A DNA stretch of 64,000 nucleotides, from positions 620,001 to 684,000 of the forward strand of contig NZ_BLXZ01000002.1 of NCBI RefSeq assembly GCF_014193675.1, in the 5' to 3' direction. A model generated the notes under the pieces. It had not been told where the DNA came from, did no database searches, and saw only the letters and a program-made list of their open reading frames with translations. The position numbers and the translations under genes were made by a program. Below are positions 42,567-49,972 of the stretch, in pieces. Every line of letters starts with the position of its first letter. Position 1 is the first letter of the stretch. The stretch is from Geomonas limicola (GTDB taxonomy: Bacteria; Desulfobacterota; Desulfuromonadia; Geobacterales; Geobacteraceae).

Positions 42567-43463
42567 TCAGCCGTGGCAGGCGGAGACCTGCTCCAGCTGC
42601 GCCGCGGGGCGCGCGGCTGGGGGGGCGAGTTCGCCGGTGTGGCTGAGCCAGGAGAGCGCCAGGCCGAGCAGGTCCGCGACGCCGCCCATGGTGAGGTTCT
42701 GCTCGATGTAATAAGCGTTGCGCTCGATGAGAAAGCCGAGGAAATCCTCGCGCTCGAGCACCATGCGCTCCAGGGTCCTGCCGTCTTCCTGCACGGTCTT
42801 AAGTCCTTCGGGGCCGCAGCGGTGCAGCGCGGTGGTGTCCTCCACGGTCTGCATGAGCCGCCCGAGCATGGCGTAGGTGGCGGTACCGCGGTTGCCGCCG
42901 GAGGCGATCTCCTGGCGGAAGACGGGGAGGGCGTGCTCGAAGAGGGTGGTGAATCCGGAGAGTGCCTCGTGGCGCACCCCCCCTACCTTGTAGCGGCTGC
43001 GCGCCTTGCTGCCGTTGGTCGACTCGTACTCGCCGCGGGCGAAGAAACGCTTGGCGAGGAGGGCGATCTCCTGGCTCAAAAGCTTCTCGTCGAGGCTTGG
43101 AACCAGGGCGCTGGCGGCGAGCAGCATACCGCTTACGAAGATGTAGCCGCGATGGCAGTTGGTGCCGGTCAGGCGCAGCATGGCCCGCTCGGCCGCGGTT
43201 CCCAGGCGCACCTGGGCGGCCAGCGGCTCGCCGCCTGCCAGGGCGTCGGCCAGGTCGCCCAGGTAGCAGGAGACGATCTGCAGGGAGGCCTCCATGCGTG
43301 CCACGGAGAGGTCGGGGTGCGAGCCGCTGTCGTTTAAGTCGACGAGGCCCGGCTTGGGAGTCAGGTAGAGTTCCAGAAAGGCGCCGCGCACCAGGTCCTG
43401 GGCGAGCTTCCCCAGGTGGGCGGGTGCAGGATCGGTTGTGCAATAGGTAGTGTTAGAGTGCAT
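42567..43463 (-). CDS. citG: Triphosphoribosyl-dephospho-CoA synthase
   Basis: A 298-residue enzyme that makes the precursor of the citrate lyase prosthetic group from ATP and dephospho-CoA. Family motifs are LTPKPGLVDLNDSGSHPDLSVARMEAS (residues 34-60), GTNCHRGYIFVSGMLLAA (the TNTHKG region) and VRHEALSGF; the Asp/His clusters bind nucleotide and metal. Its ATG overlaps the citX stop by 11 bases. It is the last gene of the citrate lyase operon. Confidence 0.93.
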   Translation of the reverse strand: MHSNTTYCTTDPAPAHLGKLAQDLVRGAFLELYLTPKPGLVDLNDSGSHPDLSVARMEASLQIVSCYLGDLADALAGGEPLAAQVRLGTAAERAMLRLTGTNCHRGYIFVSGMLLAASALVPSLDEKLLSQEIALLAKRFFARGEYESTNGSKARSRYKVGGVRHEALSGFTTLFEHALPVFRQEIASGGNRGTATYAMLGRLMQTVEDTTALHRCGPEGLKTVQEDGRTLERMVLEREDFLGFLIERNAYYIEQNLTMGGVADLLGLALSWLSHTGELAPPAARPAAQLEQVSACHG

Positions 43464-43947
43464 CGATCACCGCGTGTGCGCGTGCCTGCAGTTGGGCGCC
43501 GTCGTGACGCCCGGCCCGGATGCAGGCAACTGCTGCCTCGCTACAGATAAGGCAGGTTCTGGGGGAAATGCCCAAGCCGGCGCGGTCCACGGGACGCCCG
43601 GAGGGGTCGTAGATGTCAAGGTCCAGGAGGCGGCCGGCGGGGTGCGCCGTTTCCACCTCGATGGCCTTGCGTTTCGCCGGTTCGGCCGCAAGCCCGACGC
43701 CGTACAGGGCGAAGGGGCCGAGCGCGTCGTCCTCCCGCGCGAGGAGTCGGGCCGGCAGCGCGGCCAGCAGGGCCTGCTCGCCCCACCGGAAGAGGCGCTC
43801 CGCCCGCGGCCCGGTCTTCCGGTCACCCGGCAGGTTGAGGCTCAGCATGAGGATGGCGGGGTACTCGCTGGGGAACCGGCGCTCGAGGAGTGCCTGGCGC
43901 CGGTCGCGTGCCGCCAGGAGGCTATTCCTTAACGCGTCGCACCACAT
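43453..43947 (-). CDS. citX: Citrate lyase holo-ACP synthase
   Basis: A 164-residue protein that moves the phosphoribosyl-dephospho-CoA group onto Ser of CitD. Motifs match CitX: AARDRRQALLERRF near the start, NLPGDRKTG, and AGRLLDLDIYDPSG...RTCLICSEAA near the end. The ATG at 43947 is chosen, overlapping citF by 26 bases; the longer frame would overlap by 83. A fused CitXG occurs in some bacteria; here the two are separate but overlapping. Confidence 0.92.
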   Translation of the reverse strand: MWCDALRNSLLAARDRRQALLERRFPSEYPAILMLSLNLPGDRKTGPRAERLFRWGEQALLAALPARLLAREDDALGPFALYGVGLAAEPAKRKAIEVETAHPAGRLLDLDIYDPSGRPVDRAGLGISPRTCLICSEAAVACIRAGRHDGAQLQARAHAVIDAL

Positions 43948-45460
43948 CGATGATCGACCCGTCACGGTATTCGATAAGTGCCACGATTTCATCCTCAAAG
44001 TCAAGAGGTCGCGGCGTTCCGGTGATCCTGCAGGTCTCTTTTTGCAGGTCGTGGATCTCTTTTACCGGCAGTTTGCGCCGGATAAGCTCCTCTTTCAGCT
44101 CGGGATGCCGGTCGTGCACCGCGATGCCGCGCTCGGTCACCACCACCGAGATGGTTTCGCCGGGGGTGGTGATGGTGGTCACCTGGTCGCGCACGATGGG
44201 GAGCCTGCCGCGGATCGAGGGGGCCACGATGATGGAGAGCTTGGCGCCGGCCGCGGTGTCCGAGTGCCCGCCGGTGTTGTGCAGCAGGTAGCCGTTACTC
44301 TCGGTGTTCACGTTCACGTTGAAGTTGCAGTCCACCTCGGTGGCGCCCAGGATCACGCAGTCCAGCCGGTTCACCACCGCGCCTCGGTTGAAGGGGTTCG
44401 CGTAGAGGTCGGCGCTGATCTCCTGGTGCGCCTGGTTCACCCCGATGGAGCGCACCGCTTCGGTATCGAAGCACTGCACGTCCATGAGCGAGGAGAAAAG
44501 CCCCTCCTCGAGCATCCCGACGAAGTAGCCGGTGATGCCGCCGCAGCCGAAACTCCCCTTGATGTTGCCGCGGCGCATGGCGCTTCTCATCTTGTCCGCC
44601 ACGGCAAGCGAGATGCCGCCCGAGCCGGTCTGGAAGGAGAAGCCGTCCTGCAAGAGCCCCGAGGCCTCGATGACCTGCGCGGCGTAGGAGGCGATCTGCA
44701 GGCCGACCGGGTCGGTGGTGATGCGGGTGGTGGTGGAGACGATCTTCGCCGGGTCGCCGAGCCTTTCGACCTGGACCACGAAGTCCACGAGCGTCTGCGG
44801 GATCACCACGGGGACCGCGGGGTAGGGGACCAGGTTGTCGGTTACGGCCACGACACAGGCCGCGTGCAGGGCGTCGCTCTGCGCGTACCCCAGGCTGCCG
44901 CAGGCCGAGGGGCCGAAGTAGCCGTTCAAGTTCCCGCAGGGGTCGCAGCAGGGGGCGGCGATGAAGGAGACGTCGATCTTCACCGACCCTTCCAGGATTG
45001 CCCGGGCCCGGCCGCCGTGGGAGCGCACGATGATGGGGACCTGGAGTTCCCCCTTGCTGGCGAGCTCGCCGATAAGCCCGTTCACGCCGCACTGGAAGCC
45101 GGCGATCACGCCGCTTTTGATGTGCGGGATGATCTCGGCGTGCACCGGGTGCACCGACGAGGATGCGATCCAGATGCCGCGGATCCCCAGCGCCGCGATC
45201 TCGTTCACTACCGCGTTCAACAGGTAGTCGCCGTTTCGCAGCGCGTGGTGCGTCGAGATGGTCATGCCGTCTTTAAGCCCGCTCGCCTCGATCGCTTCCC
45301 TGAGCGAGCCAACCAGCTTGCTGGTCCCCGGGTTCACCCGGGTGATGGGGCGCGGGGCGGCGAGGCCGGAGGGCTGGTTCGAGAAGGGGTCGCGGTAGGG
45401 GGTAAGCGTGCGTCCCGCGTAGCTTGCCGGGATCTCCCGCCCGAGGCTATTGAGCGCCAT
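43922..45460 (-). CDS. citF: Citrate lyase alpha subunit
   Basis: A 512-residue CoA-transferase-type subunit that exchanges acetyl on the ACP for citrate to form citryl-ACP. It follows CitF throughout: MALNSLGREIPASYAGR start, GMTISTHHALRNGDYLLN, VRSHGGRARAILEGSV, FQTGSGGISLAVA and GGHSDTAAGAKLSI. The length equals other CitF (about 505-510). The start overlaps the end of citE by 14 bases. Confidence 0.96.
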   Translation of the reverse strand: MALNSLGREIPASYAGRTLTPYRDPFSNQPSGLAAPRPITRVNPGTSKLVGSLREAIEASGLKDGMTISTHHALRNGDYLLNAVVNEIAALGIRGIWIASSSVHPVHAEIIPHIKSGVIAGFQCGVNGLIGELASKGELQVPIIVRSHGGRARAILEGSVKIDVSFIAAPCCDPCGNLNGYFGPSACGSLGYAQSDALHAACVVAVTDNLVPYPAVPVVIPQTLVDFVVQVERLGDPAKIVSTTTRITTDPVGLQIASYAAQVIEASGLLQDGFSFQTGSGGISLAVADKMRSAMRRGNIKGSFGCGGITGYFVGMLEEGLFSSLMDVQCFDTEAVRSIGVNQAHQEISADLYANPFNRGAVVNRLDCVILGATEVDCNFNVNVNTESNGYLLHNTGGHSDTAAGAKLSIIVAPSIRGRLPIVRDQVTTITTPGETISVVVTERGIAVHDRHPELKEELIRRKLPVKEIHDLQKETCRITGTPRPLDFEDEIVALIEYRDGSIIDVVRRVKE

Positions 45461-46367
45461 GGATGGCCTCCTCGTCGATCAGGGTGTCCACCATGCCGTG
45501 GGCGTAGGCGGTGCGCAGGACGCGCGCGGCGCGCTTCACGACCGGGGCGTCCACCATCTTCCCCTTCAGGGAGATGACGCCGGTACCCAGCGCACGGGCC
45601 CGCTGGATCGCCTCGATGACCTGCAGGGCGTAGTCGACCTCCTCCTTTTTCGGGGCGAAGACGTCGTGCACCACCTCGATCTGGCGCGGGTTGACCAGGC
45701 ACTTCCCGGTGTAGCCGAGCCTCTTGGCGAGCTCGGTCTCGGCTTTCAGTCCTTCCATGTCGTTCACGTCGGCGAAGATGGTATCGATGGCCTGGATGCC
45801 GGCGGCCTTGGCGGCCCAGAGCACCCGGGTACGGGCGTTGAAGAGCTCCTCGCCCCCCTTGGTCCGCTCGATCTCCATACTGGCCGTGTAGTCCTCGGCG
45901 CCGAAGGCGAGCGCGAAGATGCGCTGCGAGCTGTTGGCGATCCCCACCGCGTTGATGATGGCGAGCGCGCTCTCCAGCGAGGGGAGCACCCGGAAACGGC
46001 CGATCTCGAGGTCCAGTTCCTCTTCGAACTCGGTCAAAAGGGTGTCGAGCCGCTCCACGATCTCCGGAGTGTCCGCCTTGGGGAGGCGGATGCCGTCGGG
46101 GAGCGCCGGGAGCACCACCTTCAGGTCCTCGTAGCCCCACTTGGAGTCGAGGGGGTTGATGCGCACCAAAAGTTCCTTGTTGCGCTCGGTGTAGTTCATC
46201 AGGAAGTGTTTCACCAGGTGGCGCGCCGCGTCCTTCTCGCTCATCGGGACGGCGTCTTCCAGGTCGATGATCACCGCGTCGCAGTTGAAGATCGGGATGT
46301 TCTGCAGCATGGAGGGCATGTTGCCCGGCACGTACAAAAGCGAGCGCCTCAGCTTGAAATCGCCCAT
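45447..46367 (-). CDS. citE: Citrate lyase beta subunit
   Basis: A 306-residue HpcH/HpaI-type lyase that cleaves citryl-ACP to oxaloacetate and acetyl-ACP. Motifs: LRRSLLYVPGNMPSML, DAVIIDLEDAVP (Mg site Asp/Glu), VRINPLDS, LPSLESALAIINA, ALAFGAEDYTAS and KCLVNPRQIEVV. Its ATG directly follows the stop of the PPC-domain gene (TAAATG), so the two are tightly coupled. Confidence 0.96.
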   Translation of the reverse strand: MGDFKLRRSLLYVPGNMPSMLQNIPIFNCDAVIIDLEDAVPMSEKDAARHLVKHFLMNYTERNKELLVRINPLDSKWGYEDLKVVLPALPDGIRLPKADTPEIVERLDTLLTEFEEELDLEIGRFRVLPSLESALAIINAVGIANSSQRIFALAFGAEDYTASMEIERTKGGEELFNARTRVLWAAKAAGIQAIDTIFADVNDMEGLKAETELAKRLGYTGKCLVNPRQIEVVHDVFAPKKEEVDYALQVIEAIQRARALGTGVISLKGKMVDAPVVKRAARVLRTAYAHGMVDTLIDEEAIHGAQ

Positions 46368-46850
46368 TTAGGCACCCCCTTCGTCGATGTAGAGGGTGGG
46401 GATCCCCCCCATCTTGGAGACGTGGCGCTCGACCCCCTCGACGGAGAGCTCGGTAAGCACGATCTCGCAGGTGGCGAAGACCTGGGCGTCGTAGAGATGC
46501 CCCCCCACCACCTCGCCGGAGGACTTCGACATCATGATGTGGAAGTGGCAGTCCAAAAGGTCGTCCTCGCCGGGGACGATGTTCCCCTGCAGCCCGAGAA
46601 GCTCGAGCGGTCCCTCGATCTCGTGGATGGTGACCCGCGGGGCGGTGATCGGGAGCTTGGCGCCGGTCTTGATGCCGCGCAGCTTCACGTTCTTCACGCT
46701 CCCCAGCGCCGAGACGATCATGGCGTAGCGCACGTCGGCCAGGTGGGCGAACTGCAGAAGCCGGGTGGTCAGGTTCTCGCCCGGCGTGATCTTGATGATG
46801 AAGCGTCTCCCCTGGGAACACTCCTTGTACCAGAGCCCTTCCATGTTCAC
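46368..46850 (-). CDS. PPC (DUF296) domain protein inside the citrate lyase operon
   Basis: A 160-residue protein with the plants-and-prokaryotes conserved domain: RFIIKITPGENLTTRLLQFA, ALGSVKNVKLRG, then the zinc-binding His pattern HFHIMMSKSSGEVVGGHL and CEIVLTE. In bacteria the PPC domain is usually found as a small trimeric protein with a bound metal; it is a DNA-binding partner domain in plants. Here it is inserted between citD and citE with gaps of 3 and 0 bases. It is not part of the known citrate lyase complex. It could regulate the operon or help the enzyme; not proven. Confidence 0.88.
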   Translation of the reverse strand: MNMEGLWYKECSQGRRFIIKITPGENLTTRLLQFAHLADVRYAMIVSALGSVKNVKLRGIKTGAKLPITAPRVTIHEIEGPLELLGLQGNIVPGEDDLLDCHFHIMMSKSSGEVVGGHLYDAQVFATCEIVLTELSVEGVERHVSKMGGIPTLYIDEGGA

Positions 46851-46853
46851 GTC

Positions 46854-47117
46854 TTACTCCTCCGCTGCCCGTAGAAGGGCGGTCTCCAGGCGAGCCTCGA
46901 TGGCGTAGTCCAGGGCGCCGCGGTCGGTGATGCGCACCTCGCCTGATTCCACGTGGTGCCGCGCGAGCACCTCGTCGACCTTGGCCCGGATCAGCTCGCC
47001 GAACTGCTTCAAAACCGTCGACTCGATGGTCACCGTGAGGTGCTCCGCCGGCTCGAGAAATACCATCAGGTCGCTGGACTGCATGGTCCCGGCCTGCACC
47101 TTACGCGTGATTTTCAT
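46854..47117 (-). CDS. citD: Citrate lyase acyl carrier protein (gamma subunit)
   Basis: An 87-residue carrier. The prosthetic group site is the Ser pair in AGTMQSSD (residues 9-16), the place of Ser14 in enterobacterial CitD. The rest matches the family (VLKQFGELIRAKVDEVLARHHV; DRGALDYAIEARLE). ATGA overlap with citC at 47114-47117. Confidence 0.95.
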   Translation of the reverse strand: MKITRKVQAGTMQSSDLMVFLEPAEHLTVTIESTVLKQFGELIRAKVDEVLARHHVESGEVRITDRGALDYAIEARLETALLRAAEE

Positions 47118-48118
47118 GCTGCCTCTCCTTTGGGGTCCCAGACCCGCCGCCCTTCGCGCGACAACAGGAAGTTGAGCGTGGTCTCCGGCACCAGGCTCGC
47201 GAGCTGCCGCGAGTCCCCCTCGGCCAGAAGCGCCCGGACCCGGGTTGCGCTGATCGGGGCGCTCCCCGCGTCCACCCGCTCGAGTTCGCTGACCTCGATG
47301 CCGTGCTCGGGGAGGATCCGCTGCATCGCCGCATTGTAGCTCGCGGTGGTGGGGGAGAGCGGCTCGCTTCCCACGAAGCGCCGGGTGATGTGGAAAAAGG
47401 GTGCGATGTGCTTGGCGAAGAGTAAGAGGTCGAGCTCCATCTGGAGGACACCGCCCGGATCGCCGTTCTTCAGAAAGTAGGTGGGGAAGGTGACGCTGGA
47501 GACCGCGTAGCTGGAGGTGTCCAGGAGGATCACGTTGGGGAGGTCAGCGGTTCCCTCGCGCACCATCCGGTGGCGGTAGTCGAAGGAGAACAGCGAGCGT
47601 TCCTCGCGCACCACGAAGAGGTAAAGCTTTTCGACCTGGGAGGCGGCCTCCTCGACCAGGTAACGATGCCCCAGGGTGAACGGGTTGCAGTTGGCGACGA
47701 TGGCGCCGTTGGGCCCCGGGGTGACCAGCTGGCGGTGCCGGTTCAGGTAGCGCCCCAGGCCGTCGCCGTATTCCAGGAGCGCGCTCTTCGACGAGGCGGC
47801 CAGGAGGTGAAAGTTGAGGGCCTGGAAGCTGGTGACCTGGCCGGGCGAGGTGAAGATGAAGAAGGAGTCGAGCCCCTCCTGGTAGCCGCGTCCCACCAGG
47901 ACGGTGACGATCTCGTCCAACAGGCTCCCCCCCTGCGCCTCGGGCGCCACCGCGAGCATCTTGAGGACCCGCCCTTCGCGTGCGCCCACCGCCTGCAGTC
48001 GGCCGGCCTGGAAGATACCTACCAGGTCGTCGAAAGGGGGCTCGAAGCTCAGGCCGCTGGCGTCGATAAGGTCGCAGGCCTGGCGCAGATCGTCTGTGGA
48101 AAGCAGCGAGGTAACCAT
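47114..48118 (-). CDS. citC: [Citrate (pro-3S)-lyase] ligase
   Basis: A 334-residue enzyme that acetylates the citrate lyase prosthetic group with acetate and ATP to activate it. An N-terminal GNAT-like domain (about 1-120) precedes the nucleotidyltransferase domain with GAIVANCNPFTLGHRYLVEEAA (HxGH-type site), VREERSLFSFDYRHRMVREGT and SATRVR near the end. The ATG at 48118 is used; a TTG at 48142 is possible, and neither has a strong RBS. It is the first gene of the operon citC-citD-PPC-citE-citF-citX-citG. Confidence 0.93.
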   Translation of the reverse strand: MVTSLLSTDDLRQACDLIDASGLSFEPPFDDLVGIFQAGRLQAVGAREGRVLKMLAVAPEAQGGSLLDEIVTVLVGRGYQEGLDSFFIFTSPGQVTSFQALNFHLLAASSKSALLEYGDGLGRYLNRHRQLVTPGPNGAIVANCNPFTLGHRYLVEEAASQVEKLYLFVVREERSLFSFDYRHRMVREGTADLPNVILLDTSSYAVSSVTFPTYFLKNGDPGGVLQMELDLLLFAKHIAPFFHITRRFVGSEPLSPTTASYNAAMQRILPEHGIEVSELERVDAGSAPISATRVRALLAEGDSRQLASLVPETTLNFLLSREGRRVWDPKGEAA

Positions 48119-48175
48119 GGCCACAATGTTATCATTATTCAAGAATATGGGTAATCATGTATACGGCGAGAGACG

Positions 48176-48419: not shown

Positions 48420-49643
48420 CTAGAACGCGAAGTTTAAGCTGACCTGGGCCTTCGCTTCGCTGGGGTAGGAGTGGTTATCGAATTTCGCGGTCCCCAAGCC
48501 GTAGGCGCCGTCGATGTCCAGGAAGAACCAGGGGATGCCGATGCTCAAGCCGGCGGTGACCGCACCGTCGGAGCCGGAGTCGGCGAGGTTGGTGTAGCCA
48601 CCGGCGCGCAGCTTAAGGCAGCTGAAGGGGTGGAACTCGGCGCCGCCGCCCAGGTTCTGGCTCTTCATCCCGGGGATGATGGTCGAGTTGGAAAGGACAT
48701 CGATGTCGCCGGTCAGCTCCAGCCAGGAGAGGGCGTCCCAGGAAACACCGGCACGCACCTGGCGTCCGACGCTGATCTTCTCGCCGTTTTTCGCCTTGAA
48801 GGACGGGGAGTTCAGGTTCTTGCCGACCAGGCCCACGGCGAAAGAGGGTACCGGCTTCCAGAGGGTGCCGAGGTCGATGCCGAAGGACGAGGAGTCGTGG
48901 AAGTTCTTCTTCCCTTCCTTGAAGAGGTCCGAGGAGGAGATGACCGATTTATTGGCGGCGTCGTAGATCTGCAGGTTCTCCTTCATGGTAACCATGCCGT
49001 TCAAGTATTTAAGGCTGGCACCCACGCCCAGCTTGCCCCACTTCCCTGCATCGAAGGCGTGGCCGTAGGATACCGGTACCTCGGTCAGCACGATGCCGCG
49101 GGTGGTGACGGTTTTCGAGGAGAGTGCGGCGTCGATGGTGCTCTGGGTGGAGCCGTTCACCGTGACGGGAACCGTGAGCTTGGTGCCGCCCGGGTCGGGG
49201 TTGGCTCCGACTTCGGCGGTGCCGTAGGCTCCGAAGCCGAAATGCTTGATCTGCACCCCGAGGGCCGCCCCACCGGTGACGTGGAAGTTGTCCTTGGTGT
49301 TGGTGTCGACCAGGGTGTTGAAGGCGTTAGCGAGCGCGTCGGCATTGGTCTGGTTCTGGGTGCCGTTCCAGGCGTCGTTTGCCTTCACCAGGTTGTCGAG
49401 ATCTTCGGCAAGCTTGCCGTGGGTGTTGAGGCCCGCTCCCGCGGTGAGGGAGACCGTCACGGTCTTCGGGGCGAAGGCGAGGCCCGCCGGGTTCCAGTAG
49501 GGGGCCATGGCGCCGTAGGTGCGTGCGACGCCGGAACCGCCGACGCCGAGCGAACCGGCGCCCAGGGGCTGGAATTCAAGCGCGTGAGCCGTGGAGCCGA
49601 TACCGAGGAGAATTGCCGCTACTGCTGCTGAACGTCTGATCAT
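48420..49643 (-). CDS. TraF-type outer-membrane beta-barrel protein
   Basis: A 407-residue porin-like protein. Signal peptide of residues 1-21 (RSAAVAAILLGIGSTAHA). The start of the mature part, LEFQPLGAGSLGVGGSGVARTYGAMAPYWNPAGLA, has the NPAGL motif of the OmpP1/FadL and TraF_2 families, and many alternating beta strands follow to the C-terminal aromatic end SLNFAF. The name TraF is a family label; there is no conjugation operon here. A transport role for hydrophobic compounds is possible. The start at 49643 has AAGGAGT upstream; the frame extends 53 codons further without support. Confidence 0.85.
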   Translation of the reverse strand: MIRRSAAVAAILLGIGSTAHALEFQPLGAGSLGVGGSGVARTYGAMAPYWNPAGLAFAPKTVTVSLTAGAGLNTHGKLAEDLDNLVKANDAWNGTQNQTNADALANAFNTLVDTNTKDNFHVTGGAALGVQIKHFGFGAYGTAEVGANPDPGGTKLTVPVTVNGSTQSTIDAALSSKTVTTRGIVLTEVPVSYGHAFDAGKWGKLGVGASLKYLNGMVTMKENLQIYDAANKSVISSSDLFKEGKKNFHDSSSFGIDLGTLWKPVPSFAVGLVGKNLNSPSFKAKNGEKISVGRQVRAGVSWDALSWLELTGDIDVLSNSTIIPGMKSQNLGGGAEFHPFSCLKLRAGGYTNLADSGSDGAVTAGLSIGIPWFFLDIDGAYGLGTAKFDNHSYPSEAKAQVSLNFAF

Positions 49644-49972
49644 GTGCCACTCCTTGCAGGTTGGGATATCAAAGCAGTCCAAAGACAGGGATGCCGAACT
49701 CGGTATCGAGAACTCCCGCGACGGGCAAAATCTAATTAACGATCTGCCACTTCGGGTCGATGCGGGCCGAGTATACACAAAAATGTCGGGTTGGTGCAGC
49801 AAAACTTTAGGTTTTATGGGGACATGCAGAGTCTTTTAACTTCCCGCTCAGGAACCGGCAGGAGCGCCGGGCACATTAACCTTGAATTCGCGCGTGGATC
49901 TGGGATAATCTCCCCTTTGGCGCTTCGCGCCGGAACTGCGCGATTACGCTAGTCAAACGGGGGATACCGCTC
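49644..49972. other. Intergenic region between divergent genes
   Basis: About 330 bases. It contains the promoter at 49882-49909 for PBP1A. A TATACT box (minus strand, about 49770) may belong to the TraF-type gene. Confidence 0.4.
49882..49909 (+). promoter_or_regulatory. Promoter of the PBP1A gene
   Basis: TTGAAT (49882-49887), a 16-base spacer and GATAAT (49904-49909). Confidence 0.55.

Follow-up and report, generated by a model that had tools for sequence, protein, structure and literature searches.

Citrate lyase is an enzyme complex familiar from textbooks. In E. coli K-12 it is encoded by citCDEFXG, whose six genes are arranged as in the locus described here. There, however, citD overlaps citE by 4 bases, whereas a gene for a PPC-domain protein lies between the two in the DNA analyzed here, a 64,000-nucleotide stretch of Geomonas limicola (the window). 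The PPC-bearing operon is a variant of the known citrate lyase operon. In Geobacter bemidjiensis the cluster Gbem_3862-Gbem_3856 has been called citCDEFXG, i. e. six names for seven locus tags (PMC2996986, excerpt). It is very probably the same operon as that of the window. The tags between Gbem_3862 and Gbem_3857 are not discussed singly in the excerpted text, and the seventh tag would be the PPC gene. The same excerpt suggests a reductive TCA use of the G. bemidjiensis lyase. It also describes the citG- and citX-like genes GSU0806 and GSU0807, which G. sulfurreducens keeps without a lyase, and reads them as indicating that the precursor of the prosthetic group may have a second use. In the openly licensed literature we found no report of a PPC/DUF296 gene in a citrate lyase operon; the excerpt of PMC6053493 concerns ATP-citrate lyase and has no bearing on the protein.

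The best solved relatives are the stand-alone prokaryotic PPC proteins 2h6l and 2dt4 (PH0802), which share the domain with profile E-values of 2.1e-35 and 2.5e-30, respectively. Unlike the operon-borne protein, both were deposited as hypothetical proteins. We know of no tie of either to citrate lyase; the protein of 2h6l has been described as metal-containing. For other prokaryotic PPC proteins a homotrimer is reported in the excerpted part of PMC4209074.

In the window the operon lies on the minus strand in the order citC, citD, PPC gene, citE, citF, citX and a citG-like gene. Only two of its cit genes pass the NCBIfam equivalog cut-offs, namely citD for the acyl carrier subunit (46854..47117; PF06857, TIGR01608) and citF for the alpha subunit (43922..45460; PF04223, TIGR01584). 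The ligase gene citC (47114..48142; PF08218, 1.9e-65) falls just short with 260.0 bits for TIGR00124 (cut-off 262.1), as do, by larger margins, citE for the beta subunit (45447..46367; PF03328, 8.5e-60; TIGR01588 341 bits, cut-off 443.4) and citX (43453..44004; PF03802, 5.4e-35; TIGR03124 96.2 bits, cut-off 105.25). The best NCBIfam match of the citG-like gene (42567..43463; PF01874, 4.2e-52) is mdcB, likewise below its cut-off. The PPC gene occupies 46368..46850, with a GTG start, 160 codons and the stop TAA at 46370-46368. The original prediction of a complete PPC gene separated from citD and citE by 3 and 0 bases, respectively, is correct by the window coordinates. The GTG start is uncertain since 35 of 37 aligned loci, with starts picked by rule, begin at the position of an in-frame ATG (46844) two codons further in. 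From there the protein would have 158 residues and the gap to citD would be 9 bases. The spacing suggests that the PPC gene may be translationally coupled to citD and citE, or translated in fixed proportion with them.

Among named organisms, Geomonas silvestris (98% identity), of the class Desulfuromonadia, is the nearest relative. We sampled 244 genomes from 79 genera of this class and found close relatives of the PPC protein (E <= 1e-10) in 44 genomes from 16 genera. The citD model TIGR01608 matched in 56 genomes, in 48 of them above its cut-off. Comparison of coordinates showed that each of the 44 close relatives adjoins a citD over the cut-off, and the order citD-PPC-citE-citF was the same in all 44 genomes. 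Thus an insertion particular to the genome of the window is ruled out, and so are close relatives scattered through the class at this threshold. The examination of other cit operons of the group, which had been proposed along with the original prediction, therefore came out in its favor. Four genomes have a citD over the cut-off but no PPC gene (G397, G424, G468, G486); in these, citD shares a frame of 374-409 amino acids with citE, i. e. they carry CitD-CitE fusions. In one such locus (L156) Pfam detected ACP and HpcH_HpaI in a single frame. The eight class genomes whose best citD match remained below the cut-off gave no PPC match. Two congeners (G004, G016) lack citD and lack any PF03479 protein, and in the genome of the window the single PF03479 match is the gene in the cit operon.

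The spacing was examined across 37 loci (the window, L002-L008, L127-L153, L161 and L162), again with starts picked by rule. The gap between the PPC gene and citE ranges from -8 to +5 bases, and that between citD and the PPC gene from -4 to +4, except for 86, 23 and 18 in L140, L147 and L152. In 29 loci drawn for comparison, the genes flanking the operon vary between lineages, so the unit of conservation is the operon itself. The same-strand gene upstream of citC in the window (48420-49802; PF13729, TraF_2, 2.3e-27) belongs to no cluster common to at least three of these loci. In five loci (L134, L135, L143, L145, L146) divergent genes for a sigma-54 response regulator, a histidine kinase and a CHASE4/PAS/GAF protein adjoin the operon upstream of citC (checked by Pfam in L135).

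In a draw of 297 genomes from the phylum, 41 PPC matches were found besides those of the window's genome and G231, all at most 36% identical, and none of the 28 that were examined had cit genes nearby (2.5-3.4 kb each). Plasmid records held PPC proteins at 32% identity or below only, and the viral contigs scanned gave no match. The PPC protein of the cit operon (cit-PPC) may be a dedicated seventh member of the Desulfuromonadia citrate lyase operon, an assumption that forms part of the explanation favored below. In the openly licensed papers searched, this additional gene, conserved through a bacterial class, seems to have gone unnoticed.

The statement that known operons have no gene between citD and citE held in all 12 comparison loci in which the two are separate: those of E. 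coli, Fusobacterium, Peptoclostridium, Gluconobacter, Azospirillum, Secundilactobacillus and Enterococcus, and five from the phylum of the window (L197-L201). Altogether, no PPC gene was found in 21 comparison loci of 3.5-18 kb, 14 from outside the class, including E. coli, and seven of the fused type from inside it, while two positive controls were detected in the same run; L202, with citF alone in the stretch covered, was left out. The Cupriavidus and Rhizobium loci have citF without an adjoining citD match. The Peptoclostridium set, which has methylaspartate genes alongside, may encode a citramalate lyase. The fused-type loci (L154-L160) represent a second lyase type of the class, with CitD fused to CitE (about 404 amino acids), a citF and no PPC gene. 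This lyase possibly has a different substrate; in L158 a fumarase-family gene lies near it. Sampling of other phyla was confined to plasmid records and E. coli, and the genome-contig scan covered near relatives only (seven loci), so a wider spread of cit-PPC is possible.

The PPC gene is under purifying selection. In 45 pairs from ten hand-picked loci of Geomonas and near relatives (L005 omitted), its median dN/dS of 0.10 (Nei-Gojobori) was the lowest of six operon genes tested, followed by citE (0.11), citD (0.17), citF (0.20) and citC (0.23); for citX six pairs were available. Over 33 of the 37 loci (L128, L140, L144 and L153 dropped), PPC distances correlate with those of CitE (r 0.917) and CitF (r 0.908), but with kinship uncorrected all tested operon genes correlate pairwise (r 0.83-0.95). 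This fits joint descent of the operon.

The PPC protein of the window matches PF03479 (PCC) with 90.7 bits (1e-25; curated cut-off 25). Pfam assigned this domain alone, without a direct match to the acetolactate decarboxylase family PF03306, and a search of NCBIfam gave no match. An intact, putatively metal-binding histidine pattern, as had been noted, is present in the form HxH...GGH with H102, H104 and H118 (codons H102-H118, 46497..46547, minus strand). In an alignment of the 37 cit-PPCs with 42 other PPC proteins, these three residues and E83 do not vary within the cit set. The pattern is shared well beyond it: G50, G89, H102, H104 and G116 occur in all 42 others, E83 in 40, E129 in 38 and H118 in 33. 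What sets the cit-PPCs apart is a loop, R58-GIK-x-GA-xx-PI68, which is invariant in all 37, its single residues recurring in 0-12 of the 42 others (R58 6, G59 0, I60 0, K61 8, G63 12, A64 2, P67 7, I68 1). Further residues typical of the cit set are likewise rare among the others, namely R72 (5), H76 (4), D100 (0), S110 (8), S111 (2), E113 (5) and C128 (8); H76, S111 and E113 are each present in 36 of the 37 cit-PPCs.

In SCOP, PPC proteins are grouped with the fold of the acetolactate decarboxylases. When a profile of all 79 PPC sequences was compared by hhalign with one of acetolactate decarboxylases, the score was 31.3, with an E-value of 7.7e-4 that applies to a single comparison and a probability of only 25.2%; the decarboxylase profile was built from 10 of 15 loci, selected by length and by a motif criterion that already requires the triad. 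The best of 100 column shuffles scored 19.6 and the reversed profile 13.7. The alignment spans 97 columns, and in it HFH...GGHL of the PPCs meets HLHF...GGHLL of the decarboxylases, i. e. the two triads coincide. The similarity is remote, and it was lower for the cit-PPCs alone (25.2, probability 6.2%) and for the other PPCs alone (29.6, 17.8%). An AlphaFold model of the protein, built from seven near-identical sequences, had a pLDDT of 35.7 and was unusable for fold comparison. A protein related in structure to acetolactate decarboxylases is PTD012/C11orf54, which carries zinc on three histidines, decarboxylates beta-ketogulonate and hydrolyses p-nitrophenyl acetate (PMC12435205). Its family, PF08925, had no match in 247 genomes and none in 14 controls either, so this absence counts neither way.

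The interpretation we favor, with a probability of roughly 0.38, is that cit-PPC is a metalloenzyme that assists citrate lyase, with oxaloacetate as its likeliest substrate. The PPC-fold protein would be a remote relative of zinc beta-keto-acid decarboxylases such as acetolactate decarboxylase, with its metal held by H102, H104 and H118. It would act directly after citrate lyase on the product oxaloacetate, which would be decarboxylated to pyruvate and CO2, or tautomerised, and this removal could pull the reversible cleavage of citrate forward. Oxaloacetate is proposed because citrate lyase releases it and it is a beta-keto acid, but to go from the fold to this substrate is conjecture; the triad gives no pointer to oxaloacetate, as it is general to many PPC proteins. 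In favor of the interpretation stand the constant position beside citD, the low dN/dS, the invariant triad and cit-specific loop, the profile alignment with acetolactate decarboxylases, the decarboxylation of beta-ketogulonate by PTD012 and the neighborhoods of other PPC genes described below. Several observations count against this role, beside the low hhalign probability and the triad filter mentioned above. The 12 operons compared in which citD and citE are separate all manage without a PPC gene. An oadA-like gene is present elsewhere in the genome of the window (668.9 bits, below the cut-off of 756.5). In three loci (L136, L138, L147; checked by Pfam in L136) genes for an OAD-beta membrane subunit, a biotin carrier and a carboxyltransferase, i. 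e. a sodium-pump decarboxylase set, directly precede citC. If the lyase served CO2 fixation, as suggested in the excerpt of PMC2996986, decarboxylation of oxaloacetate would even be counterproductive. To see whether cit-PPC might replace a missing OadA, 23 genomes were searched for oadA; two passed the cut-off, one with the PPC-bearing operon (G007) and one without cit genes (G016), and some others gave matches at 665-685 bits. The five cit genomes without PPC that come from elsewhere in the phylum had no oadA match above 127 bits, so the absence of oadA does not track the PPC gene.

Other roles have to be weighed against that of an enzyme acting on oxaloacetate. Cit-PPC could be a non-catalytic subunit, an assembly factor or a ligand-sensing subunit of the CitDEF complex. 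Its gene is flanked by subunit genes on both sides in every one of the 44 genomes, and its distances track those of CitE and CitF, although those of every operon gene tested do so as well. Since homologous lyases elsewhere lack the protein and a triad so strictly conserved points to more than a scaffold, we regard this as rather unlikely. A catalytic role on the complex itself would be that of citrate lyase deacetylase, a metal hydrolase which removes the acetyl group from the prosthetic group of CitD, switches the lyase off and thereby opposes CitC. The position directly after citD in 44 of 44 genomes and the esterase activity of PTD012, of related fold, point in this direction, and the basic residues specific to the cit set could hold the phosphorylated prosthetic group. 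To our knowledge no gene has been assigned to this activity, and we consider the assignment improbable for cit-PPC. The activity itself has been described in Rhodopseudomonas gelatinosa and R. palustris (Giffhorn 1981, as cited in an excerpt of PMC11204750).

A role as regulator of transcription, which the original prediction had offered and which the common label of PPC proteins implies, has less support. Plant AHL proteins with a PPC domain do act in transcription, according to the excerpt of PMC4209074. The AT-hook core RGR, however, is absent from all 37 cit-PPCs, and the protein has a pI of about 5.8 (median of the cit set 5.86); judged from these features, the label "DNA-binding" seems to fit poorly. 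A GTATAC element recurs upstream of citC (48159..48164, minus strand, in the window) and could be read as the site of such a regulator. It lies within 170 nt of the start of the citC match, which is not a proven start codon, in 20 of 35 loci, versus 54 of 6670 background windows; L140 and L144 were left out because citC is cut by a contig end. Yet all 35 loci carry the PPC gene, and ten of the 20 with the element belong to Geomonas. Of four Geomonas genomes searched for a longer form of the element, three have a single copy, located at the cit operon; the window's own has none. The element may be a promoter -10 or an operator, in the latter case possibly that of another regulator. Hence a DNA-binding regulator of the cit operon appears highly improbable to us. 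That a generic PPC protein is simply carried along, unlinked to citrate lyase, is scarcely to be expected: PPC proteins do occur in other gene contexts, but the unbroken position in 44 of 44 genomes, the residue signature of its own and the joint absence with citD in two congeners speak against a passenger.

If cit-PPC is an enzyme, many PPC annotations are misleading. More generally, it is conceivable, though we would not yet bet on it, that prokaryotic PPC/DUF296 proteins with HxH...GGH belong to the acetolactate decarboxylase superfamily and work as metalloenzymes in metabolism, not as DNA-binding proteins. Cit-PPC would then be the first with an identifiable substrate, either oxaloacetate or the acetyl-thioester on CitD. 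For a widespread domain whose prokaryotic role is unsettled, it provides a handle in the form of an operon, a candidate substrate and invariant residues. The neighborhoods of the four best-scoring PPC genes of the phylum outside cit operons lean to a metabolic role as well, as far as four loci can tell. One lies beside genes for an aldehyde:ferredoxin oxidoreductase and an uptake binding protein (L205), one beside an aldehyde dehydrogenase and a GntR/FCD regulator (L206), one beside an uptake binding protein (L207) and one beside an E1 dehydrogenase and a TRAP transporter (L208).
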